A stretch of 64,000 bases of DNA from Rhizobacter sp. OV335. GTDB lineage: Bacteria; Pseudomonadota; Gammaproteobacteria; Burkholderiales; Burkholderiaceae_C. The translations under genes were made by a program, and so were the position numbers. The notes beneath the pieces are model-generated. The model saw only the letters and a program-made list of their open reading frames with translations. It searched no databases and was not told the DNA's origin. Positions 2,107 through 23,445 of the stretch are shown piece by piece (position 1 is the stretch's first letter; each line of letters begins with the position of its first letter). The stretch spans positions 1 through 64,000 of the forward strand of contig NZ_FRCQ01000016.1 of assembly GCF_900142965.1 (NCBI RefSeq). The letters run 5' to 3'.

Positions 2107-2136
2107 GACAGGTCTCCTTTCAGATCAGGCAGGGGC

Positions 2137-3465
2137 TCACAGGTCGCCGAAGCCGATGGCGCCGTTGCAGTGCAGCCATTCGCTGCGGCCGCTGCCGCCA
2201 CCGCACCGGCCGTTCTGGTACACGCCGGTGTTGTAGGTCTGGTTCTCGGCCTGCCGGACGCTGCCGTTCACGCTCAGGTAGTCGACCTGGACGTCGCGGC
2301 CGGCGGCGTCGTTGCTGAACTCCACGGTGCTGCCGCCCGACAGGCTGGTCGTGAACGTGTAGTTGGTCATGGTCTTGCCGAGCGTCCAGCTCTGCACCGC
2401 GGTGCCGCCGACGCGCAAGGTCACGCGCTCCTGGCCCGAGGTTCCCCGTGCACGCACGACGATGGACTTGCCGGGCATGCCGCCGCCACCGCCGCCGGTG
2501 TTGCTGCGCACGTAGTTGCCGAGCCAGGTCAGCGCGGGCCGCTCGCTGCCATCGCGGCGCACGAGGTGCGAGTTGGCCACCCAGGTCTGGCCTTCGATGT
2601 AGCCCCACAGCGTGACGCCCGCGACGCCCGGGTGCGTCCACAGCAGCGGGAACTTCTGTTGGTAGCGCGCCAGCTGCGTGGCGTCGTCACCGGTCATGTC
2701 CAGCTCCGACACGTAGATCGGCAAGCCGGCCTGGGCCAGCGAGTCCAGGTTCTGCGTGATCGTGGCCGGCGCCAGGTTGTCGATGCTGAAGTAGTGCGTC
2801 TGGATGCCCACGCCGTCGATCAAGCCGCGCGACTTCAGGATGTTGACGATGCCCTTGTAGCGGTTCAGCGCGTTGGCGTCGTTGATGATCCCGTACTCGT
2901 TGATCAGGAGCTTGGCGTTGGGGCAGTGCTGGCGGGCCTTCTGGAACGACCAGACGATCCAGTCCCAGCCGGTCGAGCCCGCGCCGCCGAGGGCCTCGCG
3001 GTAGCTGGCCGGTGCATGCAACGGCTCGTTGACCACGTCGATGTACTGCGTCTGCGGGTAGCGCTGGCAGTACTGGCGCATGAAATCCTCGACCTCGGCG
3101 GCTTGCTGCGGCGCGCTCAGCCCGTCGATCCAGTTCGGCGCCTGCGAACCCCACACGAAGGTGTGCTGCTTGAACGGAAAGCCGTTGGAGCGCGCGTAGT
3201 TGTAGGCGGCGTCGAGCTGGCTCCAGTTCATCTGGCCGCGCACCGGCTCCACCGACTCCCACTTGCCGGCGTTCTCCGGCGAGACCTGGTTCCAGTAGGT
3301 GCTGAAGTTGCCCGGCGGATTGCCGGCAATGATGTTGCCGAGGAACTTGGGCTTGCCGACGGCGATCTGCGCGTGGGCCAGGCCGGCTGAACCCAGCAGG
3401 CCGAGTGCTGCCGTGGTGCAGACCATGGCGCGATGGATGGACTTGACGATGTGTTCGGTGTTCAC
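2137..3465 (-). CDS. GH10 endo-1,4-beta-xylanase with C-terminal CBM60-like xylan-binding domain
   Basis: A 442-residue secreted endoxylanase. The signal peptide ends near residue 32 (AHA-Q). The GH10 barrel (about 36-325) has the acid/base in DVVNEPLH (Glu147) and the nucleophile in VSELDM (Glu254); the usual HTLVWHSQ reads HTFVWGSQ here, as in short GH10 forms. A Gly-rich linker (324-329) precedes a domain of about 108 residues with SIVVRARG, GRDVQVDYLSVNG and a Cys-rich CGGGSGRSEWLHCNG end, which resembles the calcium-dependent CBM60 (or the related CBM36) xylan binders. The gene starts 20 bp after the GH30 stop and ends 30 bp before GH62, forming a tight xylan operon. Confidence 0.93.
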   Translation of the reverse strand: MNTEHIVKSIHRAMVCTTAALGLLGSAGLAHAQIAVGKPKFLGNIIAGNPPGNFSTYWNQVSPENAGKWESVEPVRGQMNWSQLDAAYNYARSNGFPFKQHTFVWGSQAPNWIDGLSAPQQAAEVEDFMRQYCQRYPQTQYIDVVNEPLHAPASYREALGGAGSTGWDWIVWSFQKARQHCPNAKLLINEYGIINDANALNRYKGIVNILKSRGLIDGVGIQTHYFSIDNLAPATITQNLDSLAQAGLPIYVSELDMTGDDATQLARYQQKFPLLWTHPGVAGVTLWGYIEGQTWVANSHLVRRDGSERPALTWLGNYVRSNTGGGGGGMPGKSIVVRARGTSGQERVTLRVGGTAVQSWTLGKTMTNYTFTTSLSGGSTVEFSNDAAGRDVQVDYLSVNGSVRQAENQTYNTGVYQNGRCGGGSGRSEWLHCNGAIGFGDL

Positions 3466-3485
3466 GGTTGCGTTCCTTTGGAGGG

Positions 3486-5573
<2,088 letters not shown>

Positions 5574-9385: not shown

Positions 9386-9399
9386 TGCAAGCGCTTGCA
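9386..9399. promoter_or_regulatory. LacI-type operator TGCAAGCGCTTGCA upstream of the GH39-like gene
   Basis: A perfect 14-bp palindrome with the central CG step typical of LacI/PurR operators, 22 bp before the hydrolase start. The same palindrome recurs at 10663-10676 before the transporter; the divergent LacI regulator between them is the obvious ligand. Confidence 0.85.
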
Positions 9400-9440
9400 A
9401 CATGCTGACCTGACCGTTCTTGCGAATCAACGGTGGCAAG

Positions 9441-9462
9441 CGGGAAACCCCGGGGTTTCCCG
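9441..9462. promoter_or_regulatory. 22-bp perfect GC-rich palindrome in the divergent promoter
   Basis: CGGGAAACCC followed directly by its mirror image, a perfect inverted repeat without a spacer, between the GH39-like gene and lacI-1. It is unlike the LacI operators and may bind another factor or form a cruciform. A short GGGT...ACCC pair follows it. Confidence 0.6.
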
Positions 9463-9510
9463 GGTGTGATACCCGAATCGGTGGGTCTTTCCCCTTCCAC
9501 GGGCAAGTTG

Positions 9511-9524
9511 CGCAAGCGCTATCA
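9511..9524. promoter_or_regulatory. Degenerate LacI operator at the lacI-1 start
   Basis: CGCAAGCGCTATCA matches the local operator at 11 of 14 positions and ends seven bases before the lacI-1 start codon, where binding would block ribosome access or elongation. It suggests weak autoregulation. Confidence 0.45.
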
Positions 9525-9531
9525 TCCGGCC

Positions 9532-10554
9532 ATGCCCATCGAAAACACCAGCGTCACGCTCGAAGAGGTGGCGCGCCTGGCCGGGGTTTCCACGAGCACG
9601 GTGTCGCGCTACCTGAGCGGCACCCACGTGGTCGCCGAAGAGAAGGCGACGGCCATCGAGAGCAGCATCAAGCGCCTGAACTACCGGCCCAACCTGGTCG
9701 CGCGCGGGCTCGCCAAGGGCCGCACGATGACCGTCGGCGTCCTGACGCAGGAGATCTCCAGCTCGTTCTTCAACGAGGCCATGCGTGGCGTCGAGGATGG
9801 GCTGGCCAGCCACCATTACGAGGCCATCTTCGTGAGCGGCCACTGGAACAAGGTCGAGGAAGAACAACGGCTGATGTCGCTGATGGGCCGCCGGGTCGAC
9901 GGCGTGATCCTGCTGGTGGCCGAACTGGACGACGAGCTGCTGGATCGCCATGCGCAAGGCGTTCCCACGGTGCTGCTCGGGCGGCAGTCGGCGTCGATGC
10001 GGGTGCATTCGCTGTGCTTCGACCACTACGCCGGCGCCTGCGAGGCGGTGCGCCACCTCCTCGAACTCGGCCATCGCAGGATCGCCTTCATTGCCGGCCC
10101 GCCGGGACGCCAGGATGCTGAAGAGCGCTTGCGCGGCTACCGCGACACCCTGGTCGCGGCCGGGCTGCCCTTCGACGAGGGGCTGGTGGCGCCGGGCGGC
10201 TATGTGGAGACGGGGGGCGTGACGGCGATGAACATGCTGCTCGATCGCGGCCTGCCGTTCAGCGCGGTGTTCGCCGCCAACGACGACTCCGCCTATGGCG
10301 CGATGCTCTCGCTGTACAGGCGCGGCATGCGCGTGCCGGACGACATGTCCATCGTCGGCTATGACGACCTGTCCCATTCCTCCTTCTCGCTGCCTCCGTT
10401 GACCTCGGTGAGGCAGCCGCTGCGCGACCTCGGCCGGGAGGCCGCGGGGGCGGTCGTCGCGCTCATCGACGGCCGCAAGCCGCCGCGCGCGGCGATGGCG
10501 AAGCTGGAGTTGATCGTCCGCGAATCGACCAAGGCGGTCCCCGTCACACGCTGA
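9532..10554 (+). CDS. LacI-family regulator 1 of the polysaccharide locus
   Basis: 340 residues: an N-terminal HTH (VTLEEVARLAGVSTSTVSRYLSG), a hinge helix (RPNLVARGLAKG) and a periplasmic-binding-like effector domain ending in FAANDDSAYG and IVGYDDL. The start at 9532 follows the domain boundary; an upstream extension would be non-homologous. It sits between two copies of TGCAAGCGCTTGCA, one before the GH39/GH26 pair and one before the sugar ABC importer, so it probably represses both until a released oligosaccharide binds. The two residues before TVSR that read the operator are Thr-Ser here and Ala-Ser in LacI regulator 2, whose operator differs at matching positions. Confidence 0.92.
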   Translation: MPIENTSVTLEEVARLAGVSTSTVSRYLSGTHVVAEEKATAIESSIKRLNYRPNLVARGLAKGRTMTVGVLTQEISSSFFNEAMRGVEDGLASHHYEAIFVSGHWNKVEEEQRLMSLMGRRVDGVILLVAELDDELLDRHAQGVPTVLLGRQSASMRVHSLCFDHYAGACEAVRHLLELGHRRIAFIAGPPGRQDAEERLRGYRDTLVAAGLPFDEGLVAPGGYVETGGVTAMNMLLDRGLPFSAVFAANDDSAYGAMLSLYRRGMRVPDDMSIVGYDDLSHSSFSLPPLTSVRQPLRDLGREAAGAVVALIDGRKPPRAAMAKLELIVRESTKAVPVTR

Positions 10555-10661
10555 CACGGGGCGCCCCATCCGGGTGCGCGACAAGCCGCGAAACCGCAAG
10601 ATCGGCTAGGTCGTTCAGGGTTCCCCCCGGGCCGGTGCCGACACCCAGTTCATACACTGCC

Positions 10662-10677
10662 ATGCAAGCGCTTGCAT
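10662..10677. promoter_or_regulatory. LacI operator before the sugar ABC importer
   Basis: ATGCAAGCGCTTGCAT is a perfect 16-bp palindrome, 55 bp before the GTG start of the binding-protein gene. It contains the same 14-bp core as 9386-9399 and is predicted to be bound by LacI regulator 1. Confidence 0.88.
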
Positions 10678-10732
10678 GAGCGTTGTCACGGACACGACAG
10701 GCGCTTCGTCGGACCACCCCAGAGGAGTTGAA

Positions 10733-11977
10733 GTGAAATTCGCAACCAGGCTCAGTCTCGCCACGCTGCTGGCATCGGCCACGGGCCTTGCCTCGGCACA
10801 GACGGTGCTGACCGTCGCATCGTTCAAGGATCTCGACCGCTCGGTGCAGGCGGCGATCCCGCTGTACAAGAAGGTCCACCCCGAGGTCGAGATCAAGCTG
10901 GTCGCGCTCGGCTACGGCGACCACCACAACGCGATGACGACGGCGCTGGCCACCGGCGCGAACCTGCCCGACGTGATGGGCATCGAGATCGGCTTCGTCG
11001 CCAAGTTCGCCGAAGGCGGCGGCGTGGAAGACCTGTCCAAGCCGCCCTACAACGCGCTGCAGTACAAGGACAAGTTCTTCAGGTTCACGGTGGCGCAGGC
11101 CACCAGCCGCGGCGGCATCTTCGCCGCGATGCCGGCCGACATCGGCCCGGGTGCGCTGTTCTATCGCAAGGACCTGATGGACAAGGCCGGCGTCACCGAG
11201 GCGCAGCTCACCCAGTCGTGGGCCTCGTTCATCGATGCCGGCAAGGCGCTCAAGGCGAAGACCGGCGCCTACCTGATCCCGCATGCCGCGGCGATCAAGG
11301 ACATCGTGATCCGCTCGGGCCTGAAGGACGGCGAAGGCATCTACTTCGACAGCAAGGGCAGGATCCTGGTCGATTCGCCGCGCTTCGTGGAAGCCTTCGA
11401 GACCGCCAAGCTGGCGCGTGCGGCCGGCATCGACGCCAAGGTCGGCGCCTGGAGCAACGAGTGGAGCGAAGGCTTCAAGCGCGGCACCATCGCCTCGGAG
11501 ATGATGGGCTCCTGGCTCGCCGGCCACCTGAAGAACTGGATCGCCCCGGACTCCAAGGGCCACTGGCGCTCGGCCGGCCTTCCCGGTGGCGTGAACGCCT
11601 CGTATGGCGGCAGCTTCTACGCGATCCCGAAGGGCGCGAAGAACAAGGAACTCGCCTGGGACTTCGTGAAGTTCATGACGACCAGCAAGGAGGTGCAGAT
11701 CGCCGCCTTCCGCGAACTCGATGCCTTCCCGGCGCTCGTCGAGGCCACCACCGACCCGTTCGTCGACCAGCCGATGGACTTCCTCGGCGGCCAGAAGGCG
11801 CGCCAGGCCTGGAAGGCCACCGCGGCGAAGATTCCCGCCACCGAAGTGGACAAGCTCGACCCGGTGGCCGCCGAGGTCGTCAGCGCCGAGTTCGACAAGG
11901 TGCTGGAGCAGGACAAGGACGTGAAGACGGCGCTGGCCGACGCAAAGAAGGCGATCGAACGCCGCGTTCGCCGCTGA
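10733..11977 (+). CDS. Periplasmic sugar-binding protein of an ABC importer (family 1)
   Basis: 414 residues. A signal peptide ends at LASA-Q; the mature part opens VLTVASFKDLDRSVQAAIPLYKKVHPEVEIKLV, the standard start of extracellular solute-binding family 1, and keeps the ATALATGANLPDVMGIE and GGSFYAIPKGAKNK regions. GTG at 10733 was chosen because GAGGAG sits five bases upstream and the signal peptide begins there; the upstream reading adds unrelated sequence across the promoter. With the two following permeases it should import xylo- or gluco-oligosaccharides released by the neighbouring enzymes. Confidence 0.92.
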   Translation: MKFATRLSLATLLASATGLASAQTVLTVASFKDLDRSVQAAIPLYKKVHPEVEIKLVALGYGDHHNAMTTALATGANLPDVMGIEIGFVAKFAEGGGVEDLSKPPYNALQYKDKFFRFTVAQATSRGGIFAAMPADIGPGALFYRKDLMDKAGVTEAQLTQSWASFIDAGKALKAKTGAYLIPHAAAIKDIVIRSGLKDGEGIYFDSKGRILVDSPRFVEAFETAKLARAAGIDAKVGAWSNEWSEGFKRGTIASEMMGSWLAGHLKNWIAPDSKGHWRSAGLPGGVNASYGGSFYAIPKGAKNKELAWDFVKFMTTSKEVQIAAFRELDAFPALVEATTDPFVDQPMDFLGGQKARQAWKATAAKIPATEVDKLDPVAAEVVSAEFDKVLEQDKDVKTALADAKKAIERRVRR

Positions 11978-12001
11978 TCCCCCGAGACCGGAAGTCCCCC
12001 C

Positions 12002-13033
12002 ATGTCCGCAGTCCCCGCCCCGCACGGAACGCCGCTGAAGAAGACGAGGCGGCGCCGGCTCAAGCCGTGGCGCTTCATGCCCTACGTGTTCGTCGCACCG
12101 TTCTTCATCCTCTTCCTGACGTTCGGCCTGTTTCCGCTGCTGTTCTCCGCGTATGCGTCGTTCTTTCGCTGGGAGTTGACGGCGGGCCTGGGGGGCATGA
12201 AGTGGGAGGGCCTCGGCAACTACGCCTTCGTCCTGCAGTTCGATGACCTGCCCTGGTCGCAATTCTTCTCGGGCCGGTTCTGGTCGGAGCTGTACGCGCG
12301 CGACTTCTGGCGCGCGATGTACAACACCTTCTGGCTGGGCATCGTCTCCGGACTGCCGCAGCACCTGATCGCGGTGCCGCTTGCGTTCTTCATCCACACG
12401 AAGTTCCGCCGCGCGCGCAACCCGGTGATCGCGATGTACTTCCTGCCGTACATCACCAACACCGTGGCGATCACGCTGGTGTTCTCCTCGCTGTTCTCGC
12501 GCGACTTCGGCGTCGTCAACCAGGTGCTCACCGGCCTGGGCCGGCTGGAGATGTTCGGCCTGCATCCGCTCGCCTGGCTGTTTCCGGTGCAGAACGTCGA
12601 CTGGGGGCGGCCGGAGTACACGCGGCCCATCGTGTCCTTCATTGTCTGGTGGCGCTTCGTCGGCTGGAACACCGTGCTCTACCTGTCGGCCCTGCAGACC
12701 ATCCCGAAGGACCTGTACGAAGCCGCGACCATCGACGGCGCCGGGCTGTGGCAGCAGTTCCGCTACATCACGGTGCCCTTGCTGCGCCCGATGATGCTGC
12801 TGGCCGTCACGCTGACCATCATCGGCAACCTGCAGCTCTTCGAGGAGCCCTTCATCCTCACCGGGGGCACCGGCGGGGTGGGGCAGGTGGCCGAGACGGT
12901 GGCGATGCAGATGTACAAGGTGGGCCTCAACGATGGCGACTTCGGCACCGCGTCGGCCGTCGCCTGGCTGATGTTCATGGTGATCGCCGCGCTCACGTGG
13001 CTCAACAACCGCACCCTCGGGCGCAAGGATTGA
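12002..13033 (+). CDS. Sugar ABC importer permease, MalF/UgpA-like
   Basis: 343 residues with a basic cytoplasmic start (KKTRRRRLKPWR), about six membrane spans and the EAA loop that contacts the ATPase (YEAATIDGAGLWQQFRYITVPLLRP). An insertion of polar sequence between the early spans (around residues 175-205, LHPLAWLFPVQNVDWG) is slightly unusual. It lies 24 bp after the binding protein and 6 bp before the second permease. No ATPase gene is present; such importers often borrow a shared MsmK/UgpC-type ATPase encoded elsewhere. Confidence 0.92.
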   Translation: MSAVPAPHGTPLKKTRRRRLKPWRFMPYVFVAPFFILFLTFGLFPLLFSAYASFFRWELTAGLGGMKWEGLGNYAFVLQFDDLPWSQFFSGRFWSELYARDFWRAMYNTFWLGIVSGLPQHLIAVPLAFFIHTKFRRARNPVIAMYFLPYITNTVAITLVFSSLFSRDFGVVNQVLTGLGRLEMFGLHPLAWLFPVQNVDWGRPEYTRPIVSFIVWWRFVGWNTVLYLSALQTIPKDLYEAATIDGAGLWQQFRYITVPLLRPMMLLAVTLTIIGNLQLFEEPFILTGGTGGVGQVAETVAMQMYKVGLNDGDFGTASAVAWLMFMVIAALTWLNNRTLGRKD

Positions 13034-13039
13034 CCGGCC

Positions 13040-13942
13040 ATGACCGCATCGCAACTCACCGCCCAGGCCATCGCCAGGGCACCCGCCTCGGGCAGCCGGC
13101 GCGCACGGCTGCTGCGCAAGCTCAGGCCCTCCGGGTGGTTGCCCTACGCCATCGTGATGATGGGGGCGCTCATCATGCTGGCGCCGTTCTACTTCATGTT
13201 CGTCTTCGCGACGCACACCAACAGCGACATCCTCTCGATGCCGCCGCCGCTGTGGTTCGGCTCGGCGCTGGCCGACAACATCCACCAGCTGGTCGCGCTG
13301 CGCCCGCACTTCTGGCACAGCCTGGGCCTGTCGCTGTGGGTCGCCGTGGCGGCCACCGCGCTCAACCTGTTCCTGTGTTCGCTGGGCGGCTACGCCTTCG
13401 CGATGTACGAGTTCCCGGGGCGCGACACGCTGTTCGCCGGCCTGATGGCGACGATGCTGCTGCCGGCCTTCGTCGGCATGATCCCGTTCGTGCTGCTGAT
13501 GAAGGAGATGGACTGGCTCAACAGCACGCGCGCCCTCATCGTGCCCGGCGCCTGCTCGGCGTTCGGCGTGTTCATGATGCGCCAGTACATCGGCTCGGCG
13601 CTGCCGCGCGAGCTCGTCGAGGCGGCGCGCATGGACGGCTGCGGCGAGTTCGGCATCTACTGGCGCGTCGTCGTGCCGCTCATCGGGCCGGCCATGGGCA
13701 CGCTGGGCCTCGTCACCTTCATCGGCTCGTACAACAACTTCGTCGGCGCGCTGCTCGTGATGAGCCAGCAGGAGATGTTCACCGCACCGCTCGTGCTGCG
13801 CTCGCTGCAGGGCACCGGCCAGACGCCCTGGGGCGCCATCAGCGCAGGCTCGGCCATCACGGTGCTGCCGCTGCTGATCCTCTTCGCCGCCTCTTCACGC
13901 CGCCTCATCGAGGGCCTGTCCGCAGGCGCCGTCAAGGGATGA
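13040..13942 (+). CDS. Sugar ABC importer permease, MalG/UgpE-like
   Basis: 300 residues with six predicted membrane spans and the EAA loop VEAARMDGCGEFGIYWRVVVPLIGP. It is the usual second permease of family 1 sugar importers and begins 6 bp after its partner. Its stop overlaps a possible start of the AraC-type regulator (ATGA), so the operon probably continues. Confidence 0.92.
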   Translation: MTASQLTAQAIARAPASGSRRARLLRKLRPSGWLPYAIVMMGALIMLAPFYFMFVFATHTNSDILSMPPPLWFGSALADNIHQLVALRPHFWHSLGLSLWVAVAATALNLFLCSLGGYAFAMYEFPGRDTLFAGLMATMLLPAFVGMIPFVLLMKEMDWLNSTRALIVPGACSAFGVFMMRQYIGSALPRELVEAARMDGCGEFGIYWRVVVPLIGPAMGTLGLVTFIGSYNNFVGALLVMSQQEMFTAPLVLRSLQGTGQTPWGAISAGSAITVLPLLILFAASSRRLIEGLSAGAVKG

Positions 13943-14922
13943 GGCGCCCTAGTTGCCCGATGAACACGAACCTCCTGGTCGCCGACGCCGCCGCGCAGCT
14001 CCGTTTTGCGCAAGGTCTTCCGCCCGCCGGCGCCGGCCCGCTGAAGGCGCTCGTGCGCCCGCGTGAACAACCCTCGCTGCGCAGCCACCACCTGCGGCGC
14101 ATGGAGCAGGTGCTGGACCACGTCGAGACGCACTTGTCGAAGGACCTGAGCCTGGAGCGGCTGAGCGACTGCGCGGCGTTCTCGCCGTTCCACTTCCACC
14201 GGCTCTTCCTCGCCTGGACCGGCGAGACGGCGAAGGAGTTCGTGCGCCGCCGCCGGCTCGAGACGGCGGCCGGCCGGCTGCGCCACTGCCCGAACGAGAA
14301 GGTCACGGCCGTCTCGCTCCACTGCGGCTTCGCCTCGCCGGAAGCCTTCGCCCGCGCCTTTCGCGAGCACTTCGGCATGACGCCGTCCCGCTGGCGTTCG
14401 GGCGGGTGGATCGGCTGGCGAGCGCCGGCCGACGACAGGCGGACCGCCACCAACTGCCGTGTCGAACTCAGGCACTTCGAGGCGAGGGAATGCCTCTACA
14501 TGCGCGAGCGCGGCGACTACGGCCACAGCTCTGAGGTCCTGCACACGCGCTTCGTGCCCTGGGTCGACAGCATGGGCTTGTCGGACCGGCCGATGCTGTC
14601 CATCGGCCTCGACGACCCGGCCATCACGCTCGCAGCGCAGTGCCGCATGGACGCCTGCGTCGAGCTGCCCGCCGGCTGGCAGGACCCCGGCCTGCGGGCC
14701 ATGCGCAAGAGCCTGCCGGCGCACTGGGCGGCCTGCCTGCGGTACGAAGGCCCGTCGAGCGAGATCGGGCGCGGCTGGAACAGCTTGCTCACCGAATGGC
14801 TGCCGTCATCCCCCTTCAAGCTCGCGGAGGGACATTTCATCCAGCGCTGCGAACCCGGTACGCCGCCGCCCGGTTCGCCGTTCGTGCGCTGCGAGCTGTG
14901 CATGCCGGTCAGCGCGGCATGA
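13939..14922 (+). CDS. AraC-type regulator with GyrI-like effector domain
   Basis: About 327 residues (320 if the ATG at 13960 is used; neither start has a convincing ribosome site, and 13939 overlaps the permease stop). A two-helix AraC DNA-binding domain occupies about 40-150 (RMEQVLDHVETHLSKDLSLERLSDCA through FREHFGMTPSRWR), followed by a GyrI/SbmC-like small-molecule-binding domain (VELRHFEARECLYMRERGDYG to the end). This is the Rob/BmrR layout, with the HTH first. It is embedded in the transporter/GH16-like operon and may add a second layer of sugar control, though GyrI-like domains often sense drug-like ligands. Confidence 0.85.
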   Translation: MRRPSCPMNTNLLVADAAAQLRFAQGLPPAGAGPLKALVRPREQPSLRSHHLRRMEQVLDHVETHLSKDLSLERLSDCAAFSPFHFHRLFLAWTGETAKEFVRRRRLETAAGRLRHCPNEKVTAVSLHCGFASPEAFARAFREHFGMTPSRWRSGGWIGWRAPADDRRTATNCRVELRHFEARECLYMRERGDYGHSSEVLHTRFVPWVDSMGLSDRPMLSIGLDDPAITLAAQCRMDACVELPAGWQDPGLRAMRKSLPAHWAACLRYEGPSSEIGRGWNSLLTEWLPSSPFKLAEGHFIQRCEPGTPPPGSPFVRCELCMPVSAA

Positions 14923-16400
14923 AGCGCGCAGCGTGGTGCCTGGCGGCGCTTGCCGCGGCGTGGCTGTCCGTGCCGGCCTGGGGTGCCGACGCACCGTCGG
15001 TGGTGTGGGCCGATTTCAGGACGCCTCCGGCCGGCCGCGAGCGGCCGCCGGTGACGCTTCTGCAGATCTCCGAGAAGCCCGGCGATGTCGCGGCCGACGC
15101 GCTCGGCGTCTACGACGGCGGGGTGCGGGTGTCCGGCCGCCTGGGCCGTGCGCATGGAAGCACCTGGACCACGCTGGGGGTGGACGTGGGGGCGGGCCGC
15201 GGCGGGGCGGCGGTCGACCTCTCGGCCTTCCGGAACCTGCGCATCCGGCTCGTGTCACCGACCGAACAGGTGCTTCGCATCCGGATCAAGGGCACCGACA
15301 CGAAGCTGCAGAACACCGGCTGCTACCCGGTGCTGCTGCAGCGGGTGCGGGGCACGATGGACCTCGACATCCCGCTGGCGGTCTTCGAGCCCGAGCCCTA
15401 TTGCGCCGGCAACGGCGCGAGCATCGCGCAGACCTTGCCGGCCGTCGCGAGCGTGGAGGTCACGGCCAACGAACCGTCGCAGGAGCCGGTGCGCTTCGAG
15501 CTGGGGCGCATCGAGTTCCTGAATGCCGCGGGCGACGTGGCGGCCGTGGCGGCGCCGCTGCCGCCGGCGGTCATTCCGCGCGAGGCGCGGGACGGCGCAT
15601 GGCGGCTCGCCTGGGCCGATGAATTCGACGCGGCGGCGACCGTGCGGGTCGACGAGAAACGCTGGCGCGTGCACAAGGCCCCCGGCGGCGCGAGCCCGCA
15701 GCTCGACGGCCATGGCCGCTTGCTGCTGCCGCCCGCGAGCAGCCTGCGCGTGCGGCCGACGGGCGCGATGATCTACGGCCGCATCGAGCTGCGCGTGAAG
15801 CTGCCGGCCGGTGCCGCGCGCGTCTCGTTGCAGGGCGCACCGCTGACATCGCTCGACTGGCTGGAAGCCGGCGAGATCGCGTTGATCGAGAAGGACGGGG
15901 CCGACCTCCATCTCGGCCTGTATGCGCCGGGCATCGGCGACGAGCCGGCTTTCCATGCGCCGGTGGAACTGACGCCTTCGAGCGATGGCTTCCACCGCTT
16001 CTCGCTCGAATGGGACCCGGTGAAGATCCGATGGGCTCTCGACGACGTGGTGGTGAAAGCGGTGCTCCGCGCCGAGGTGCCCACCGGTGCGCGCGAGGTC
16101 TTCGAGCAATGGCCCTTCCTGCTGAACCTGGAAGCCGGACCGGGCAGCGAGCCGATGCTCGTCGACCATGTCCGCATCTACCAGAAGGACGAGCTGGCCG
16201 CCTTGTCGCGCCAGCGGCTCGCGACCTGGAAGACGGCGTACGAGTCGGTGAACGACTCGGCGAACGCCGCGGTGCCGGTCTCCCGTCGCGTGGCGAGGCC
16301 GACGCCACCGCGCAAGGTGGCCGAGCCGGCGACGCCGGCCGCGCGCACGCGCGTCGTCACCTGCGAGCGCAACAAGTTCGGCTTGATGATGTGCTTTTGA
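14919..16400 (+). CDS. Exported two-domain protein: two-Cys beta-sandwich domain plus degenerate GH16-like domain
   Basis: 493 residues. A signal peptide ends at AWGA-D. Residues about 25-210 form the two-cysteine domain shared with four proteins downstream (ISEKPGD, then GCYPVLL to EPYC). Residues about 225-430 resemble GH16 (LAWADEFDAA, MIYGRIELRVKLP, FHRFSLEWDPVKIRWALDD), but the catalytic E-x-D-x-x-E motif reads EIALIE: both Glu are in place and the middle Asp has become Ala. It may therefore bind rather than cut glucan. A Pro/Ala-rich tail ends in a short Cys-bearing peptide. The ATG at 14919 overlaps the regulator's stop (ATGA). Confidence 0.82.
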   Translation: MKRAAWCLAALAAAWLSVPAWGADAPSVVWADFRTPPAGRERPPVTLLQISEKPGDVAADALGVYDGGVRVSGRLGRAHGSTWTTLGVDVGAGRGGAAVDLSAFRNLRIRLVSPTEQVLRIRIKGTDTKLQNTGCYPVLLQRVRGTMDLDIPLAVFEPEPYCAGNGASIAQTLPAVASVEVTANEPSQEPVRFELGRIEFLNAAGDVAAVAAPLPPAVIPREARDGAWRLAWADEFDAAATVRVDEKRWRVHKAPGGASPQLDGHGRLLLPPASSLRVRPTGAMIYGRIELRVKLPAGAARVSLQGAPLTSLDWLEAGEIALIEKDGADLHLGLYAPGIGDEPAFHAPVELTPSSDGFHRFSLEWDPVKIRWALDDVVVKAVLRAEVPTGAREVFEQWPFLLNLEAGPGSEPMLVDHVRIYQKDELAALSRQRLATWKTAYESVNDSANAAVPVSRRVARPTPPRKVAEPATPAARTRVVTCERNKFGLMMCF

Positions 16401-16498
16401 GCCCTGAGCGCAAGAACGGCACGGTCAAACGCAAAGACGCGACTGCGCCGACGGCAGCGTGAGAACACCATCCACGGGTCACTTCACAGGAGACCTCA

Positions 16499-17203
16499 GT
16501 GGATCAGATCTATCGGCGTTCATGCACCGCCCTGACGGCGCTCTTCAGCGCGGTGGCGCTCACGGCTTGCGGCGGGGGAGGGAGCAGCACCCCCACGCCG
16601 GCGGCCTCTGCGCCGCCGTCGACCCCCGTTCCATCACCGCCCGCGGGCCCGTCGTCGAGCGATGTCGCATTCGCGACCCCTTCGAGCGCGACGGACACCA
16701 GCGAGGCCGGCAAGATCGAGACCTACGCCTTTGCCGAGAAGGGCAACGAACTCGTTGCCGGTGCGCCGACGTATGCACCGAGCGAGGCGAGCTTCAGCGC
16801 GACGCTGTCGGGCAGCCAGGCCTACGCCGGTGCGGCCATCCGGCTCTACGCGCCCGGCAACACCGGCGCGGCACCGGTCACCGCCTTCAATGCCGCGGGT
16901 TTCACCAGGCTGAAGATCCAGCTGAAATCGTCGAGCGACGGCGTGTTGTCGATCAAGCTCCAACCGAGCCCGGTGGCGGGCGACGGCTGCACGGCAACGG
17001 CCCAGGCCATCGTCAACTCGACCCTGTCCGAACTCGTCATCGACCTGAACGACACGATGTTTCCGCTGCCGGACTACTGCAATGGCATCGGCTCGAAAGT
17101 CGGGACCATCCAGGCCGGTCTCTTCGCGGTCGACGTGATCAACGCCGCGACCACCACGGGCGCGCACAACCTGAGCGTGGGCACCGTGAAGCTCGCCCCC
17201 TGA
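16499..17203 (+). CDS. Lipoprotein with two-Cys beta-sandwich-like domain
   Basis: 234 residues from a GTG start with CAGGAGA six bases upstream. Lipobox LTAC near residue 24, then a Pro/Ser linker and one two-cysteine domain (about 55-234; YAFAEKGNEL, GDGC...LPDYC). It is closely related to the domains of the proteins at 14919, 20562, 21823 and 22534. The fold looks like CBM11/CIA30-type beta-sandwiches, so glycan binding at the cell surface is inferred, not shown. It precedes the EIDLE-type glucanase by 33 bp. Confidence 0.78.
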   Translation: MDQIYRRSCTALTALFSAVALTACGGGGSSTPTPAASAPPSTPVPSPPAGPSSSDVAFATPSSATDTSEAGKIETYAFAEKGNELVAGAPTYAPSEASFSATLSGSQAYAGAAIRLYAPGNTGAAPVTAFNAAGFTRLKIQLKSSSDGVLSIKLQPSPVAGDGCTATAQAIVNSTLSELVIDLNDTMFPLPDYCNGIGSKVGTIQAGLFAVDVINAATTTGAHNLSVGTVKLAP

Positions 17204-17236
17204 TCGCGCACGACAACCCACAACGAGGAGACAAGC

Positions 17237-17947
17237 ATGATCACTTCCATCGTCAAGGGCGCCTTCGCCCTGGTGCTGGCCATGGGCCTGCACCTGAACG
17301 CGCAGGCCACCAGCTTCTTCGACGGGTTCGACGGCACGGGCGGTCCCAACGGATCGACCTGGGAGACCGCCAACTGGGCCAATGGCGACATCTTCGGCTG
17401 CACCTTCGCCTTCAGCGAAGCGTGGCTGACAGGGTGGGGCGGGCTGGACCTGAACGTCAACGGCAGCAACCGCAACGCGGTGAAATGCGCCGAGGTGCGC
17501 ACCTGGCAGAGTTTCCAGTACGGCAAGTTCGTGACCCGCATGCAGCCGGGCACCATTCCCGGCGGCAACAGCTCGTTCTTTCTGTTCACCGGCAACGCGG
17601 GCACGTCCAACCACTTCGAAATCGACCTCGAGTTCATCAAGGGGGGCACCGTCCTGCACACCAACGTGTGGACGGCGGGCCAGCAGAACTTCCAGCAGTT
17701 CGCCATCGCCACCGGCTGGCGGACCATCGGCTTCGAATGGCGGCCGACCTACGTGCGCTGGTTCCACGTCAGCGATGCCGGCGTGGAGATGGAATTCCGG
17801 CGCGTCAACACCGCGTTCTCGGCCCCGATGCGCCTGATGCTGAACCACTGGGTCGGCAACAACTCGGCGAACGCCGTCGGCTTCGTGGGCACCTACAACG
17901 GTGGCGGCGGTCCGGCCTACTACGACTGGGTGAGGGTCTCGGATTGA
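17237..17947 (+). CDS. GH16 endo-beta-glucanase, EIDLE (lichenase/XTH) type
   Basis: 236 residues. Signal peptide to QATS; mature part SFFDGFDGTG onward. The catalytic motif HFEIDLEFI is the beta-bulge-free E-I-D-x-E form found in bacterial lichenases and plant xyloglucan enzymes, with nucleophile, assisting Asp and acid/base all present. WRTIGFEWRPTYVRWFHV and MRLMLNHWVG match the substrate-cleft strands. Predicted to cut mixed-linkage beta-glucan or xyloglucan outside the inner membrane. Its 3' end overlaps the convergent lacI-2 gene by 28 bp. Confidence 0.88.
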   Translation: MITSIVKGAFALVLAMGLHLNAQATSFFDGFDGTGGPNGSTWETANWANGDIFGCTFAFSEAWLTGWGGLDLNVNGSNRNAVKCAEVRTWQSFQYGKFVTRMQPGTIPGGNSSFFLFTGNAGTSNHFEIDLEFIKGGTVLHTNVWTAGQQNFQQFAIATGWRTIGFEWRPTYVRWFHVSDAGVEMEFRRVNTAFSAPMRLMLNHWVGNNSANAVGFVGTYNGGGGPAYYDWVRVSD

Positions 17948-19014
17948 GCCGTGTCTTCAGGCGGCGGTGCCGTGGTACCCCGCACCATCAGCTGCAGATC
18001 CAGCGACCCGATCGGGGCCTCGTTCAGCTGGTTCACGCCCAGCAGCCGAAGCAATTCCCGGGCGGCGGTGCAACCCATCTCGTAGATGGGTTGCCGGACG
18101 GTGGTGGTCGGCGGCACGGAATACTCGGAAGCAGGCAAGCCGTCGAACCCCACCAGCGAGATCTGGCCCGGCACCTCGATGCCGCGATTGAACAAGACCA
18201 GCCGCGCGCCATTCAAGCTCTGGTCGTTCGCCGCGAAGACCGCCGTCAACCCGATGCCGGAGTCGAGCAGGGCCTGCATCGCCCGCACGCCACCCGGCTC
18301 GGAAAAATCGCCATGCACGATGAGGCGCTGGTCCACCGAGAGACCGGCATCGCGGTGCGCATCCATGTAGCCCTGCATGCGGGCGATCGCATCGGGCTGG
18401 TACTCGATCCCGGCGATGTGGGCGATTCGCCGATGTCCCAACTCGATCAGGTGACGGGTTGCCATGTAGCCGCCCTGGCGCTGGTCGACATCCAGCGAAC
18501 GCAGGCGGGGGCCGTGGCAGTCGCGGCCGATCGCGACGATGGGCTGCAGTTCGGAGAGATCCAGCAACTGCTCGTTGCTGAGCCGTCCCCCGATGACCAC
18601 GATGCCATCGATCTTGCGCGACATCAGCACGCGCACGCGCTCGGTTTCGTCACCGGTGCGATTCCAGTGGCCCGAGATCACGATGGGGGTGTAGCCACCG
18701 CTCATCAACTCGTCTTCCACGCCCTTGGCTGCACGCGAGGTATAGGGGTTGTCGAAATCCTGCGTCAGCACGCCAATGGCCATGCTCACGCCACTGCGCA
18801 GGCTCTTCGCCACGAGGTTCGGCTTGAAGCGCAGCTTCTTGATCGCGGCGTCGACGGCCTCGCGCCTGGGCGAGTCGACCTGGCCGTTCAGGATGCGCGA
18901 CACGGTGCTGGCCGACACCCCGGCCAGCCGAGCCACATCCTGCAGGGTCGAACTCTGCTCCGACGCGCCTCGGTTCGCCAGGGCGCCGTGCCTTCCTTTG
19001 GTAGGGCTGGTCAT
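17920..19014 (-). CDS. LacI-family regulator 2 of the GH5/GH16 cluster
   Basis: 364 residues. After a polar N-terminal extension of about 22 residues comes the HTH (STLQDVARLAGVSASTVSRILNG), hinge (KPNLVAKSLRSG) and effector domain (VFAANDQSLNGARL, LVGFDGLPASEYSV). The start was set at 19014 (MTSPTKG) because a palindrome at 19052-19065 matching the cluster operator lies just upstream; the longer reading from 19083 would make that operator coding. Predicted to repress the divergent GH5 gene and itself through TGCAATCGATTGCA-type sites. Confidence 0.9.
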   Translation of the reverse strand: MTSPTKGRHGALANRGASEQSSTLQDVARLAGVSASTVSRILNGQVDSPRREAVDAAIKKLRFKPNLVAKSLRSGVSMAIGVLTQDFDNPYTSRAAKGVEDELMSGGYTPIVISGHWNRTGDETERVRVLMSRKIDGIVVIGGRLSNEQLLDLSELQPIVAIGRDCHGPRLRSLDVDQRQGGYMATRHLIELGHRRIAHIAGIEYQPDAIARMQGYMDAHRDAGLSVDQRLIVHGDFSEPGGVRAMQALLDSGIGLTAVFAANDQSLNGARLVLFNRGIEVPGQISLVGFDGLPASEYSVPPTTTVRQPIYEMGCTAARELLRLLGVNQLNEAPIGSLDLQLMVRGTTAPPPEDTAQSETLTQS

Positions 19015-19051
19015 TGAGATGCTTGCCCGAAGGGCGCTCCTTGGCGGTTCC

Positions 19052-19065
19052 TGGAATCGATTGCA
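19052..19065. promoter_or_regulatory. Operator-like site at the lacI-2 promoter
   Basis: TGGAATCGATTGCA, one mismatch from the perfect palindrome found twice on the GH5 side. It lies 38 bp upstream of the lacI-2 start, consistent with autoregulation. Confidence 0.7.
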
Positions 19066-19220
19066 CCAAGCATCTTCCAGCAAACGGTTGCTTCGTTTCG
19101 CGAATCGATGCTGGCGTGGCGAAAAGAGTCGCCCATCGCTCAGTAATTCACGTTATCCCGATCATAAGGCATTGACCCGTTGACACGACTAGTAACCTTG
19201 CTGCAACATTCTCCTCAGCT

Positions 19221-19234
19221 TGCAATCGATTGCA
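19221..19234. promoter_or_regulatory. LacI-type operator TGCAATCGATTGCA before the GH5 gene
   Basis: A perfect palindrome 37 bp upstream of the GH5 start. It differs from the LacI-1 operator only by the symmetric change GCGC to TCGA in the centre. Confidence 0.87.
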
Positions 19235-19270
19235 CGCACATTCCACACCTCATGACCGGAAGTTGAACGA

Positions 19271-20452
19271 ATGATGAAGACGGAAGCAAATTCGGCCAGT
19301 GGCGCCCCTGATAATCCTTCTCCAGGCCTTCGTTCCCCATCGTTGCAATCGATTGCACGACTCGCCGTGACCGCGATCCTGCTCTGCGCGGGGCTGGCGG
19401 CGTGCGGTGGGGCCGGCGGCGCAACGGCGTCCGACGCGCCAACGCTGGCCGACTATCCCGCGGCGGCGGCGGGCACCCCCCCTGGCGCCTCGGCGCGAGC
19501 CAACAGCGCTGCGGCTGCGTTCGGCCGTGGGGTGAACTTCGGCAACATGCTCGAGCCGCCGCGAGAAGGCGACTGGGGGCTGACCGTGGAGCAACGCTTC
19601 ATCGATCTGCTCGATGGCGGCACCTTCGACAGCGTCCGGCTGCCCGTCCGGTGGAGCAATCACGCCTCGGCCGATGCGGCGGCAGTGATCGACCCGGCCT
19701 TCTTCGCCCGCGTTGACAGCGTGGTCGACCGCCTGCTGGACAAGGGTGTCTACGTGCTGCTCGACATGCACCACTATCGCCAGCTGGACGGCGACGTGCT
19801 GGACGCCAACGAACGCGCGGTGGACCCCGCCGTGCTGGAAGTGCGCTTCCTCGCGATGTGGCGCCAGATCGCGGCTCGCTACAAGAATCGCAGCGACCGG
19901 TTGATCCTGGAGGTCTACAACGAGCCGCACGGCAACCTGACCGATCGCTGGAACGACCTCATGGCGCGGGCTGTCGGCGTGATTCGCCGCGACAACCCGC
20001 AACGCCTGATCGTCGTCGGCCCGACCAGCTGGAACAGCGCAGCCGACCTGTCCAAGCTCGTGCTGCCCAACGACGCCAACCTGGTCCTCACGGTCCACAA
20101 CTACGAACCGTTCAACTTCACCCACCAGGGCGCCACGTGGGTCACACCTGCGCTGCCGGTCGGGCAGGGCTGCTGCACGGCGGACCAGCTGTCGCGAATG
20201 ACCTGGGGCCTGGACCTCGCGAAGGCCTATGGCACGCAGGTCGGCTACCCGGTCTTCGTCGGCGAGTTCGGGTCGTACTCGGCCGCGGACAGCGCCTCGC
20301 GGGTGCACTACTCGCGTGCCATGCGCGACCTGATCGAAGCCCGCGGCATGAGCTGGCACTACTGGGAGCTGGCCTCGAGTTTCGGCGTCTACGACCCCTC
20401 GGGTGCCGGTGCGTTCCGTACCGACCTGAGAGATGCCCTGTACGGCCGATGA
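19271..20452 (+). CDS. GH5 endoglucanase-like lipoprotein
   Basis: 393 residues. The N-terminus is long and polar for a lipoprotein (about 25 residues) before a hydrophobic stretch and lipobox (LAAC, about residue 45). The GH5 barrel begins GRGVNFGNMLEPPREGDWG and holds FDSVRLPVRWSNH, the acid/base in ILEVYNEPHG and the nucleophile in VFVGEFGSY. LLDMHHY and VHNYEPFNFTHQG match endoglucanases, so cellulose or mixed-linkage glucan is the likely substrate. Codons about 25-29 contain a second perfect TGCAATCGATTGCA palindrome, so the coding sequence doubles as an operator. Confidence 0.9.
   Translation: MMKTEANSASGAPDNPSPGLRSPSLQSIARLAVTAILLCAGLAACGGAGGATASDAPTLADYPAAAAGTPPGASARANSAAAAFGRGVNFGNMLEPPREGDWGLTVEQRFIDLLDGGTFDSVRLPVRWSNHASADAAAVIDPAFFARVDSVVDRLLDKGVYVLLDMHHYRQLDGDVLDANERAVDPAVLEVRFLAMWRQIAARYKNRSDRLILEVYNEPHGNLTDRWNDLMARAVGVIRRDNPQRLIVVGPTSWNSAADLSKLVLPNDANLVLTVHNYEPFNFTHQGATWVTPALPVGQGCCTADQLSRMTWGLDLAKAYGTQVGYPVFVGEFGSYSAADSASRVHYSRAMRDLIEARGMSWHYWELASSFGVYDPSGAGAFRTDLRDALYGR
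19344..19357. promoter_or_regulatory. Intragenic LacI operator inside the GH5 signal region
   Basis: Second perfect TGCAATCGATTGCA, 123 bp downstream of the first and within the GH5 coding sequence (encoding LQSIA). The spacing would allow a repression loop between the two sites. Confidence 0.8.
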
Positions 20453-20561
20453 GCGTCTCCAGCTTGATTTCCCGCGTTGCGCCACGTCGCGGCACAACGC
20501 TGATCCGTCCGCCCGCCACGTGCAGGCAATCGTCTACCACCCCCACAGCAAAGAAGTCCCC

Positions 20562-21791
20562 ATGAACATCGACAACTCCCATCGCATGGCCGCCGTCTCG
20601 ACCCTGTTCCTGCTGCTCGCAGCCTGCGGCGGCGGGGGCACCCCGGTGCCGGGCCCGGCGCCTGCGCCTGCACCGGCGCCCTCCGTGCCGGTCACCATCA
20701 ATGGACAGGTCGTTGCGTCGTTCACCGCGGCCGACGGCAGCACCGACCAGGGGCGAACGGCCTCGGCATTCGCCTATGCCGAAAAGCCGGGCGACTTGCC
20801 CGCCCTGCCGGTGCTGGGTGTCAGCGGCAACATCCTCAATGTCACCAGCAGCTTCAGCAACGCCGGCGCCAGCACCTTCGGCGGCGTGGGCATCGACATC
20901 CCGCTGCGCGATGCCGATCGCAACCAGGTTCAGTCCGGCGCGACCAAGCTGCAGTTCTCGCTGGCATCGACCGGCACCAACAAGACGCTCAAGCTCAAGA
21001 TCAAGGCGCTGGGCTCGACACCCAACGGCTGCGTGCCGGCGGCCAGCGTGACCGTCACGGCCACCCAGACGAACTACGAGCTGGCGCTGACCGATGCCAA
21101 CTTCAAGCTGCCCGACTTCTGTGCCGGCGCCACCGTCACCAACCCGGCGCTGGCCGGCACGCTGGCCAACATCGGGGCCATCGAGGTGTCGGACGAGGCC
21201 TTCCCGACCACCGGCTCCGCCACCGTGGCGATCCATGTGGGAAGCATCGCCTTCGCGCCCAAGCCTGCCACACCGGCCACGTCGGCCGTGTCGATCACGG
21301 GCCCGTTCTCGTTCGAGTACGGCACCGGTGCCACGGGAAATGCCATCGCCGAAAACAGCTCGGCGTACACGCTGACCGGCAACCGGACGGCCGCCACCGA
21401 GTCGTGGGCTGCCACCGTGGCCGTGCTGCCGCTGACGGCGACGAGCGACGTGTCTGGCTGGCCCGCATTGAGCATCAACCTGGCCTCCACCAGCAACAGC
21501 CAGGTCGTGCTCATGCTGCAGTCGGCCGATGCGGTCGATGACGGCTGCTTCCCGAGCTATGTGGTCACCGGCCTGAGCGGCACCGCCGCGACGCGCGTGA
21601 TTCCCTTCTCGTCGTTCAGCCTGGCCAACAACCCCGATGCCAGCTGCGCTGCTGCGAGCGCCACGCGTCCTGACACCGCACTGGCGCTGACCAAGCTCAA
21701 GCAGTTCCAGATCCGCGAGCTCAAGGGCAGCGCGGGCCTGGACGCGGTGTCGGTGGTCATCGGCAAGCCTGTCCTGCTGTCGGGTCAGTGA
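20562..21791 (+). CDS. Lipoprotein with two tandem two-Cys beta-sandwich-like domains
   Basis: 409 residues. Lipobox LAAC near residue 22, a Pro-Ala stalk, then two copies of the shared domain: copy 1 about 50-235 (FAYAEKPGDLPALPVLGV, NGCVP to LPDFC) and copy 2 about 245-409, more divergent (AENSSAYTL, DGCFPSY to DASC). The start at 20562 follows AAGAAG and the lipoprotein signal. It follows the GH5 gene by 109 bp and is the only member with two domains. A surface glycan-binding role is inferred from context. Confidence 0.78.
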   Translation: MNIDNSHRMAAVSTLFLLLAACGGGGTPVPGPAPAPAPAPSVPVTINGQVVASFTAADGSTDQGRTASAFAYAEKPGDLPALPVLGVSGNILNVTSSFSNAGASTFGGVGIDIPLRDADRNQVQSGATKLQFSLASTGTNKTLKLKIKALGSTPNGCVPAASVTVTATQTNYELALTDANFKLPDFCAGATVTNPALAGTLANIGAIEVSDEAFPTTGSATVAIHVGSIAFAPKPATPATSAVSITGPFSFEYGTGATGNAIAENSSAYTLTGNRTAATESWAATVAVLPLTATSDVSGWPALSINLASTSNSQVVLMLQSADAVDDGCFPSYVVTGLSGTAATRVIPFSSFSLANNPDASCAAASATRPDTALALTKLKQFQIRELKGSAGLDAVSVVIGKPVLLSGQ

Positions 21792-21822
21792 TCGACGCGG
21801 ACCCAACCAACAAGGAGATGAC

Positions 21823-22518
21823 ATGAAGTTCGGCCCCTTCCTCGCCCCGGCGGCATGCGCCGTGCTGGGCGCTTGTTCTCAGTTCCCGGGCGGCTCGCCC
21901 GCCGAGCGGGCACCCAAGCCCATGGTCGTGCCGCTCGCGTCGCAAGCCGCGGCGCCCAACGTGCAGGCCGACTCGGCCGATCGTTTGTGGGTGACGACGT
22001 TCAAGAGCCCGTCACGCACGCCGGAGGGAGGCGTGATCACCAGTTTCGCCTTCTCCGAGAAGCAAGGCGATGCGCTGGTGTCGCCGCTGGCCGTGCAGGG
22101 CGATGTCCTCGCCGTGACCGGGCAATTCTTCGGCAAGGGCGCCAGCGCGTGGGGCGGTCTCGGGGTCAACATCGGCGCGCCGAGATCGATGCCGGTGAAA
22201 GCCGGCGACTACAGGTTCCTGACGATCCGGCTCAGCTCGGCCACCAGCACCCGCCTGCGGGTGCGGCTCGTCGGGCCGGACGAGGCCACGCAGCGGCTCG
22301 GCTGCTACCCGATGGTGTGGCAAGCCGTGAAGCCCGAAGCGGCCGAGTACCGGATTGCGCTGGAGCGCTTCGCGCCCGAAGGCTATTGCGGCCCCAAGGG
22401 TGTCGCGCTCAAGCCCACGCTGGAGAGCCTGACCGGCATCGAAGTGGCCGAAGCCGCGGCGCCGATGCGTGACCGCACCGTGAGCTTCGGCGTGGGTGCC
22501 ATCGGGCTGGCTCGCTGA
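21823..22518 (+). CDS. Lipoprotein with single two-Cys beta-sandwich-like domain
   Basis: 231 residues with a strong AAGGAG ribosome site. Lipobox LGAC near residue 18, a short linker, then the domain at about 55-231: FAFSEKQGDALVS, VTGQFFGKGASAWGGLGVNIG, LRVRLVGPD, GCYPMVW to EGYC, and a closing VSFGVGAIGLAR. It is among the closest relatives of the protein at 22534, with which it shares LESLTGIEV-type endings. No catalytic motif is seen. Confidence 0.78.
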   Translation: MKFGPFLAPAACAVLGACSQFPGGSPAERAPKPMVVPLASQAAAPNVQADSADRLWVTTFKSPSRTPEGGVITSFAFSEKQGDALVSPLAVQGDVLAVTGQFFGKGASAWGGLGVNIGAPRSMPVKAGDYRFLTIRLSSATSTRLRVRLVGPDEATQRLGCYPMVWQAVKPEAAEYRIALERFAPEGYCGPKGVALKPTLESLTGIEVAEAAAPMRDRTVSFGVGAIGLAR

Positions 22519-22533
22519 GTCGAGGGGGCAGCC

Positions 22534-23445
22534 ATGCGCCACCTGAATCACACCACCTTGCTCACCCGCGGGCTGGCCACCGCGTTGGCTGCGCTCGCCC
22601 TGGAGGCGACGGCACAGGTGCCGGCTCACATGCCGAATCCGGACAAGGCCGACGAGCAGGCCAAGCGGCTGGCCGAGAGCCCGTTCCGCCGCATCCTGGA
22701 AGCGGGCCGGGTCGAGGTCAAGCTGCGCCGCGAGGTCGAAGCGCCCGCTCCCGCAGCCGCAACGTCTCGACGCGTCACCGCTGCGGCGCCGCCAGCAGCG
22801 AAGCTGCAGGCGCCCCGGGCGGCGGGCGAGGCACCGGCCCCGTTGCTGGCATCGATCCCGGCGACCACCGCGGCGGCGGTTTCCCCTCCACCGGTGACGG
22901 TGGCCGGGGTCGAGCGCCTCTGGGCCGCCTTCAACGGCGCGACGGCCGTGGTGGAGGGGGGCTCCATCGAGGGGACGGTCTATTCCGAAAAGCCTAGCGA
23001 CGCGATCTTGGGCGACATCTCCGTTGGCAACAACGGTGTGCTCAACGTCACGGGGCAGTTCAACACGCGCGGCGGGAGCCAATGGGCCGGCGTCGGGATC
23101 GTGGTGATTTCGCCACGACCTGTGGTTGCCTCCGCGTACAAGGCGTTGAAGGTTCACCTGGCGGGCCATACGGTGGGCAAGCTGCGCCTGCGCATTCTGG
23201 GCGATGACACGGCCATTCAGCAAAGGGGCTGTTATCCGGTCGTGATGTTGCCGGTGAAGCCGCAGGTCACGGAGTACCGCGTCGAGTTTTCGCAATTCGC
23301 AGCGCCGGAGTACTGCGGTGCCGATGGCGTCGACGTCAAGACCACGCTGGAGTCACTCACCGCCATCGAGATCATCGACGCGGCAGAACCCGTGCGTGAT
23401 CGCGCGGTGAGTTTCAACGTTGGCACGCTGTCGTTGCTGAAGTAG
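22534..23445 (+). CDS. Exported protein with C-terminal two-Cys beta-sandwich-like domain
   Basis: 303 residues. A signal peptide (LAALALEATAQ) without a lipobox, a charged segment (about 25-75), an Ala/Pro-rich linker (about 75-120), then the domain at about 125-303 (VYSEKPSDAILGD, VTGQFNTRGGSQWAGVGIV, LRLRILGDD, GCYPVVM to PEYC, LTAIEIIDAAEPVRDRAVSFNVGTLSLL). The gene lies 15 bp after its paralogue and is the last member of the cluster. Its non-lipidated form suggests a soluble periplasmic or secreted binder. Confidence 0.75.
   Translation: MRHLNHTTLLTRGLATALAALALEATAQVPAHMPNPDKADEQAKRLAESPFRRILEAGRVEVKLRREVEAPAPAAATSRRVTAAAPPAAKLQAPRAAGEAPAPLLASIPATTAAAVSPPPVTVAGVERLWAAFNGATAVVEGGSIEGTVYSEKPSDAILGDISVGNNGVLNVTGQFNTRGGSQWAGVGIVVISPRPVVASAYKALKVHLAGHTVGKLRLRILGDDTAIQQRGCYPVVMLPVKPQVTEYRVEFSQFAAPEYCGADGVDVKTTLESLTAIEIIDAAEPVRDRAVSFNVGTLSLLK

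Follow-up and report, generated by a model that had tools for sequence, protein, structure and literature searches.

What is the two-cysteine domain that recurs in five exported proteins of Rhizobacter sp. OV335, and what does it do? The genes in question lie at positions 14919-23445 of the window, by which we mean the whole stretch of DNA that was analysed (64,000 nucleotides; contig NZ_FRCQ01000016.1). A sequence-only reading of the window had proposed that the domain is apparently undescribed and is a new carbohydrate-binding module (CBM), related at most distantly to CBM11/CIA30. Our analysis makes it reasonably likely that the domain forms a new sequence family in the CBM11/CIA30 beta-sandwich superfamily and functions as a glycan-binding module.

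Each of the five genes is an open frame, and together they encode six copies of one domain, named here A (14919 protein), B (16499), C1 and C2 (20562, in tandem), D (21823) and E (22534). Export signals were read by eye, with lipoboxes in three proteins (16499, 20562 and 21823) and ordinary signal peptides in the 14919 and 22534 proteins. The genes and their parts, which include a module resembling glycoside hydrolase (GH) family 16, are as follows.

14919..16400, + strand: exported protein (signal peptide by eye) with a CBM11-like domain, a degenerate GH16-like module and a C-terminal CERN..LMMC tail
14985..15524, + strand: CBM11-like two-cysteine domain, copy A (profile search)
15717..16079, + strand: GH16-like module (Pfam match at residues 267-387), motif GEIALIE
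16362..16394, + strand: conserved C-terminal tail CERNKFGLMMC
16499..17203, + strand: lipoprotein (lipobox LTAC, by eye) with a single domain, copy B at 16649-17200
20562..21791, + strand: lipoprotein (lipobox LAAC, by eye) with a tandem, C1 at 20682-21260 and the divergent C2 at 21264-21770
21823..22518, + strand: lipoprotein (lipobox LGAC, by eye) with a single domain, copy D at 21967-22515
22534..23445, + strand: exported protein (signal peptide by eye) with a Pro/Ala-rich linker and copy E at 22900-23442 (22903-23442 in the model)

The five clear copies align with one another in pairwise blastp at E values of 2e-52 to 1e-3 and identities of 21-45%, the closest pair being D-E (45%, E 2e-52), followed by A-D (35%, 1e-23), C1-D (31%, 2e-16), B-E (26%, 9e-10) and A-B (21%, 1e-3). 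Copy C2 is weak in pairwise comparison (best E 9e-4) and was found at E 2.5e-6 once the other five copies had been combined into a profile; a 22-row profile made without second copies also detects the second copy in three relatives (E 6.5e-8 to 3.3e-7). Within its own genome the 22534 protein matches four other proteins, all at this locus (E 3e-45 to 8e-6), and its only other match there is at chance level and covers the linker alone (E 0.395). The domain profile finds six matches in the same genome, all six at this locus. Chance resemblance among the copies is ruled out by these blastp, own-genome and profile searches, which bear out the claim of a domain shared by five exported proteins. It is the only recognisable domain in four of them (16499, 20562, 21823 and 22534) and is fused to the GH16-like module at 14919, as had been described.

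Conservation was counted over 50 distinct copies, taken both from this window and from relatives, with ten cut, split or weak hits excluded; these copies stem from related genomes and hence are not independent. Exactly two cysteines are present in all 50, and in all 50 a glycine precedes the first. The cysteines are 27 (five copies), 28 (24), 30 (17) or 33 (four) positions apart, the six window copies having spacings of 27, 28, 28, 30, 30 and 33. The residue before the second cysteine is Tyr in 31, Phe in nine, Trp in one, His in five, Ser in two and Asn in two. The W-x-G position is aromatic throughout (Trp 33, Tyr 10, Phe 7), and the glutamate of the S/A-E-K start is retained in 45/50, the others being three gaps, one Asp and one Ala. 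The motif set thus agrees with its original description. Because exactly two cysteines occur in exported proteins, they probably form a disulfide after export.

By sequence, the domain family is undescribed in Pfam, NCBIfam and the PDB sequences, CAZy's own models lying outside the comparison, and to that extent its apparent novelty holds. Searched whole against Pfam, the five proteins match neither a CBM family nor CIA30 at E<=1, and weak hits such as Bbp16 (E 0.028) fall far under the cut-off. Of 22 domains searched separately, two, both A-type copies in relatives, reach CIA30 (PF08547) with 18.6 and 16.0 bits, short of its 24-bit cut-off; single matches to Cas6 and to Dodecin have E values above 0.1. 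The own genome yields no CIA30 match at E<=1, and the controls of that search likewise yield none. Nothing near the NCBIfam cut-offs was found for the domain, and its profile finds nothing among PDB sequences at E<=10. Among the papers listed by full-text literature searches none deals with the domain, as judged by title and the start of the abstract.

For the predicted structure, copies E and C2 were modelled, A, B, C1 and D being linked to E by sequence homology. The AlphaFold2 model of copy E (18-row alignment) has a mean predicted local distance difference test score (pLDDT) of 94.1 and a predicted template-modelling score (pTM) of 0.90, and consists mostly of strand with three short helices. 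Its top Foldseek match is CtCBM11 from Clostridium thermocellum (1v0a; E 8.7e-8, template-modelling (TM) scores of 0.63/0.66, 16% identity), and CtCBM11 entries occupy ranks 1-4 (E 8.7e-8 to 5.6e-7); two of the entries matched are, by their titles, complexes with a beta-1,3-1,4-linked tetrasaccharide. Rank 5 goes to 7zkq, an intermediate of complex I assembly (E 2.8e-6), in which we take the matched chain to be the CIA30/NDUFAF1 protein, and CIA30-type matches (7zkq and 7zkp) stand at ranks 5 and 10. Agarases and other CBM sandwiches, the xylan binder CBM86 among them, follow at lower ranks. The most divergent copy, C2, gave a weaker model (pLDDT 73.4, pTM 0.72) for which CtCBM11 is again the first match (E 3.4e-5, TM 0.51/0.51), so that the two modelled copies point to one fold. 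Unrelated folds among the copies, which the sequence-only reading had named as a refutation, were thus not seen in these two.

Profile comparison leads to the same superfamily. With hhalign, the domain profile aligns to CIA30 (11 bacterial sequences) over 93 columns with a probability of 91.2 and a score of 47.56, compared with 17.33 for the reversed profile and a maximum of 16.96 for 100 column shuffles. On these models and alignments the domain almost certainly adopts the CBM11/CIA30-superfamily fold. A beta-sandwich is therefore predicted without a strong sequence match to any CBM family, which is the outcome that the sequence-only reading had named as support for its proposal. Its relation of the domain to CBM11/CIA30 stands; the words 'at most distantly' do not, the tie being firmer than that (Foldseek E 8.7e-8; hhalign 47.6 versus at most 17.0 in shuffles). 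As for 'new CBM', fold and gene context both speak for the designation, which is probably right, carbohydrate binding itself being drawn from those two. We consider glycan binding by the domain quite likely.

The gene context comprises the following neighbours.

9433..10554, + strand: LacI-family regulator
10676..13942, + strand: sugar-type ATP-binding cassette (ABC) transporter, solute-binding protein and two permeases
14062..14922, + strand: AraC-family regulator with a GyrI-like domain
17237..17947, + strand: GH16 of beta-1,3-1,4-glucanase (lichenase) type, EIDLEF motif intact (Pfam E 1.2e-14)
17920..19083, - strand: LacI-family regulator
19271..20452, + strand: GH5 (cellulase family), lipobox LAAC by eye (Pfam E 2e-52)

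Pfam confirms the GH16 (17237) and GH5 (19271) enzymes alongside the domain genes, and the best PDB hits of the former are the beta-glucanase 3o5s and 1,3-1,4-beta-glucanases. Ten proteins were scanned from four relatives' loci: GH1 occurs in all four, a GH39-like gene in two and GH16 in one, and one locus has GH26 together with LamB (a porin) and an ATPase of MalK type. Further upstream, on the minus strand, are genes for a GH62 enzyme with a ricin-type lectin, a GH10 enzyme with CBM60, a GH30 enzyme and a GH39-like protein, the first three making up a xylan-degrading cluster at 574-5573. The presence of LacI operators at the locus, also part of the earlier description, is supported. The operator pattern TGCAANCGNTTGCA, written after two of its sites had been seen, occurs at five window sites with at most one mismatch, against 0.18 expected, and none of 100 shuffles reaches five. 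The sites run from 9386 to 19357 with the consensus TGCAA(G/T)CG(C/A)TTGCA, one of them with a mismatch.

9386..9399: LacI-type operator TGCAAGCGCTTGCA
10663..10676: LacI-type operator TGCAAGCGCTTGCA, preceding the transporter operon
19052..19065: LacI-type operator TGGAATCGATTGCA, one mismatch
19221..19234: LacI-type operator TGCAATCGATTGCA, preceding GH5
19344..19357: LacI-type operator TGCAATCGATTGCA, inside the GH5 open reading frame, near its 5' end and past the called start

An alternative LacI operator pattern, TGRNANCGNTNYCA, has no match in the window. A perfect 22-base palindrome (CGGGAAACCCC/GGGGTTTCCCG) lies at 9441-9462, just inside the LacI frame called from the GTG at 9433; it may be an operator of a second type or may indicate that LacI really starts further downstream.

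Combined with the fold, this arrangement suggests a working model. The putative lipoproteins 16499, 20562 and 21823, together with the exported 22534 and 14919 proteins, would keep glucan chains at the envelope. The polymer held would be a beta-glucan of plant walls, with mixed-linkage beta-1,3-1,4-glucan the likeliest; the lichenase-type GH16 and the GH5 would cut it, and the ABC transporter would import the resulting oligosaccharides under LacI control. We infer the envelope position of the proteins: since three of the four stand-alone proteins appear to be lipoproteins, they would hold beta-glucan at the cell envelope. We lean slightly towards mixed-linkage glucan as the main ligand.

Several observations weigh against this interpretation. 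None of the 22 separate domains matches CBM_11 (PF03425) at E<=1, and hhalign against the single CtCBM11 sequence is weak (probability 3.9). The ligand-binding aromatics of the CtCBM11 cleft are Tyr22, Tyr53, Tyr129 and Tyr152; the W-x-G aromatic may match Tyr53 in a hand alignment, but global MAFFT gives another register, and because the two registers differ we do not claim that CtCBM11 ligand residues are conserved. CIA30 shares the fold class yet serves complex I assembly. GH26 and LamB occur in just one of the four relatives' loci. Finally, the enzymes encoded upstream in the window point to xylan.

This last point bears on the alternative that survives best, in which the domain is a true glycan-binding module of the same fold whose ligand is xylan, arabinoxylan or another hemicellulose, with the copies specialised for different glycans. 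In favour of xylan, GH10-CBM60, GH62-ricin-type lectin and GH30 share the window, and with just 21-45% identity among the five clear copies their ligands may have diverged; CBM86 among the lower-ranked fold matches fits as well. However, the window copies are closest to the lichenase-type GH16 and the GH5, and the relatives' scanned neighbours (GH1 in four loci, GH16 in one, GH26 with LamB in one) fit beta-glucan use. We regard a hemicellulose ligand as unlikely.

A scaffold role is less probable still. Here sugar binding would have been lost and the domain would be a protein-protein module, a scaffold or assembly factor like CIA30/NDUFAF1 in complex I assembly, which holds the locus enzymes together. 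Profile similarity was indeed seen to CIA30 and hardly to the lone CBM11 sequence, an unequal comparison of a profile with one sequence; in addition, most of the window's domain proteins stand alone, and in the fused one the GH16-like module is without the motif aspartate. Against this, the best fold matches are CBM11, the W-x-G aromatic is retained in 50/50 copies and the genes are placed among glycan-degrading enzymes. That the copies are ordinary CBM11 members that present models fail to score is improbable, the top fold match to CtCBM11 notwithstanding, given the failure of all 22 domains to match PF03425, the 16% identity over the fold alignment and the lack of both invariant cysteines in the CtCBM11 domain, whose sequence has no cysteine.

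Returning to a new glycan-binding family, its place among known systems can be stated more closely. CBM11 of C. thermocellum Lic26A-Cel5E (1v0a, 6r31, 6r3m and 2lro) is a beta-sandwich of similar length and ranks first by fold for both modelled copies; it is a module within a cellulase, whereas the proteins of the window are mostly stand-alone and carry two invariant cysteines. In mitochondria CIA30 is an assembly factor. The domain shares with CIA30/NDUFAF1 (PF08547) the 93-column similarity, the two weak Pfam matches and fold ranks 5 and 10, but falls below the Pfam cut-off, has a different gene context and has a constant cysteine pair not seen in CIA30, which has zero to four cysteines per row in the 11 aligned sequences and no constant pair. 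Because the PF03425 and PF08547 tests both failed, the domain is assigned to neither CBM11 nor CIA30 by sequence and is best described as a candidate new CBM family inside a known superfamily. The CBM112 report (PMC13357471) is of use here only as an earlier case of a CBM family being founded. If binding is true, a new CBM family would be founded, and curated libraries would gain a model for proteins that now have no domain.

The surface glycan-binding proteins (SGBPs) of Bacteroidota, non-catalytic lipoproteins of glycan-binding-type fold encoded in polysaccharide loci, resemble the putative lipoproteins of the window, whereas the present locus is betaproteobacterial and has an ABC transporter; SusC/D is absent among the 30 window and relatives' proteins scanned. 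A tentative and rather doubtful extension would make the locus the betaproteobacterial equivalent of the surface glycan-binding arrays in Bacteroidota: a lineage-restricted CBM11-like family with several stand-alone envelope lipoproteins per locus, capturing mixed-linkage beta-glucan without SusC/D, plus a fused GH16 that has decayed into a second module, non-catalytic and serving in binding or sensing, which carries a conserved two-cysteine tail. If binding is true, it would hint at how Rhizobacter-group bacteria retain beta-glucan at the cell envelope.

In the 14919 protein the GH16-like module matches PF00722 (E 5.7e-8, 32.9 bits against a cut-off of 22), which confirms the fusion, and aligns to the GH16 beta-1,3-glucanase 2hyk over 178 residues (E 6.7e-12), with GEIALIE opposite GEIDIME. 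Eleven A-type proteins were compared, the motif in the fused ones being located by text pattern. The module follows the domain in six, with the motif GEI(A/T/V)(L/M)(I/V/L)(E/D), and in all six the middle aspartate of ExDxxE present in GH16 beta-1,3-glucanases is replaced (A, A, T, T, T, V). Since this aspartate is missing in every fused homologue, the module is probably inactive, a likely pseudoenzyme; and since the other five A-type proteins have just a 62-72 residue tail in its place, it is dispensable. The degenerate fusion would be a useful example of an enzyme turning into a binding module.

The two-cysteine tail is retained even in A-type proteins without the GH16-like module. A C-E-R-N...M-M-C-x end is found in ten of the 11 (the window protein and those of L063, L037, L061, L036, L065, L031, L054, L066 and L055), the exception, L039, having a different ending, possibly through a frameshift. 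In 299 family genomes, own included, the tail pattern gives eight matches, seven of them in A-type proteins by coordinates; the eighth (G273) is 35 bases long and unable to encode the motif in frame. A role of the tail as a general sorting signal is not supported, as the own genome has one match and the family matches are almost confined to A-type proteins.

The distribution searches score some first-look candidates and may miss distant members. The domain profile finds carriers in 9/349 sampled family genomes and 5/141 genera, own included, which rules out confinement to the own genome. Wide spread was not seen: among 300 order and 398 phylum genomes the own genome alone matched, though these searches sample a larger group and score few first-look candidates per genome, so that absence is unproved. 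With the 22534 protein as query, 9/60 sampled relatives match at E<=1e-4, own genome and G010 included, the G010 match covering the N-terminal linker alone. Plasmids searched with the 22534 protein and phages searched with the 14919 protein gave no match. A search for A-type carriers reduced 85 pattern matches to six confirmed loci, in Rhizobacter SG703, Root1238 and Root1221, one metagenome-assembled genome, Methylibium rhizosphaerae and Albitalea terrae.

At E<=5, 8/11 genus genomes give some match to the 22534 protein's N-terminal segment. Beyond three orthologues, the best is the weak resemblance of a short stretch of its linker (22534-22900) to a TonB-C-like protein (label by eye) in the congener G010 (E 0.012; L014/L099); the other ten matches are off-frame or of low complexity by eye, and a shared sorting motif was rejected. 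An additional minus-strand domain gene, with no equivalent in the own genome, lies upstream of the LacI side in two relatives' loci (L031:7714-8994 and L033:5751-7028). Divergent copies occur in a genome of one further, more distant genus (G311), where a lipoprotein-like protein (L056:1165-2532) holds a tandem of two.

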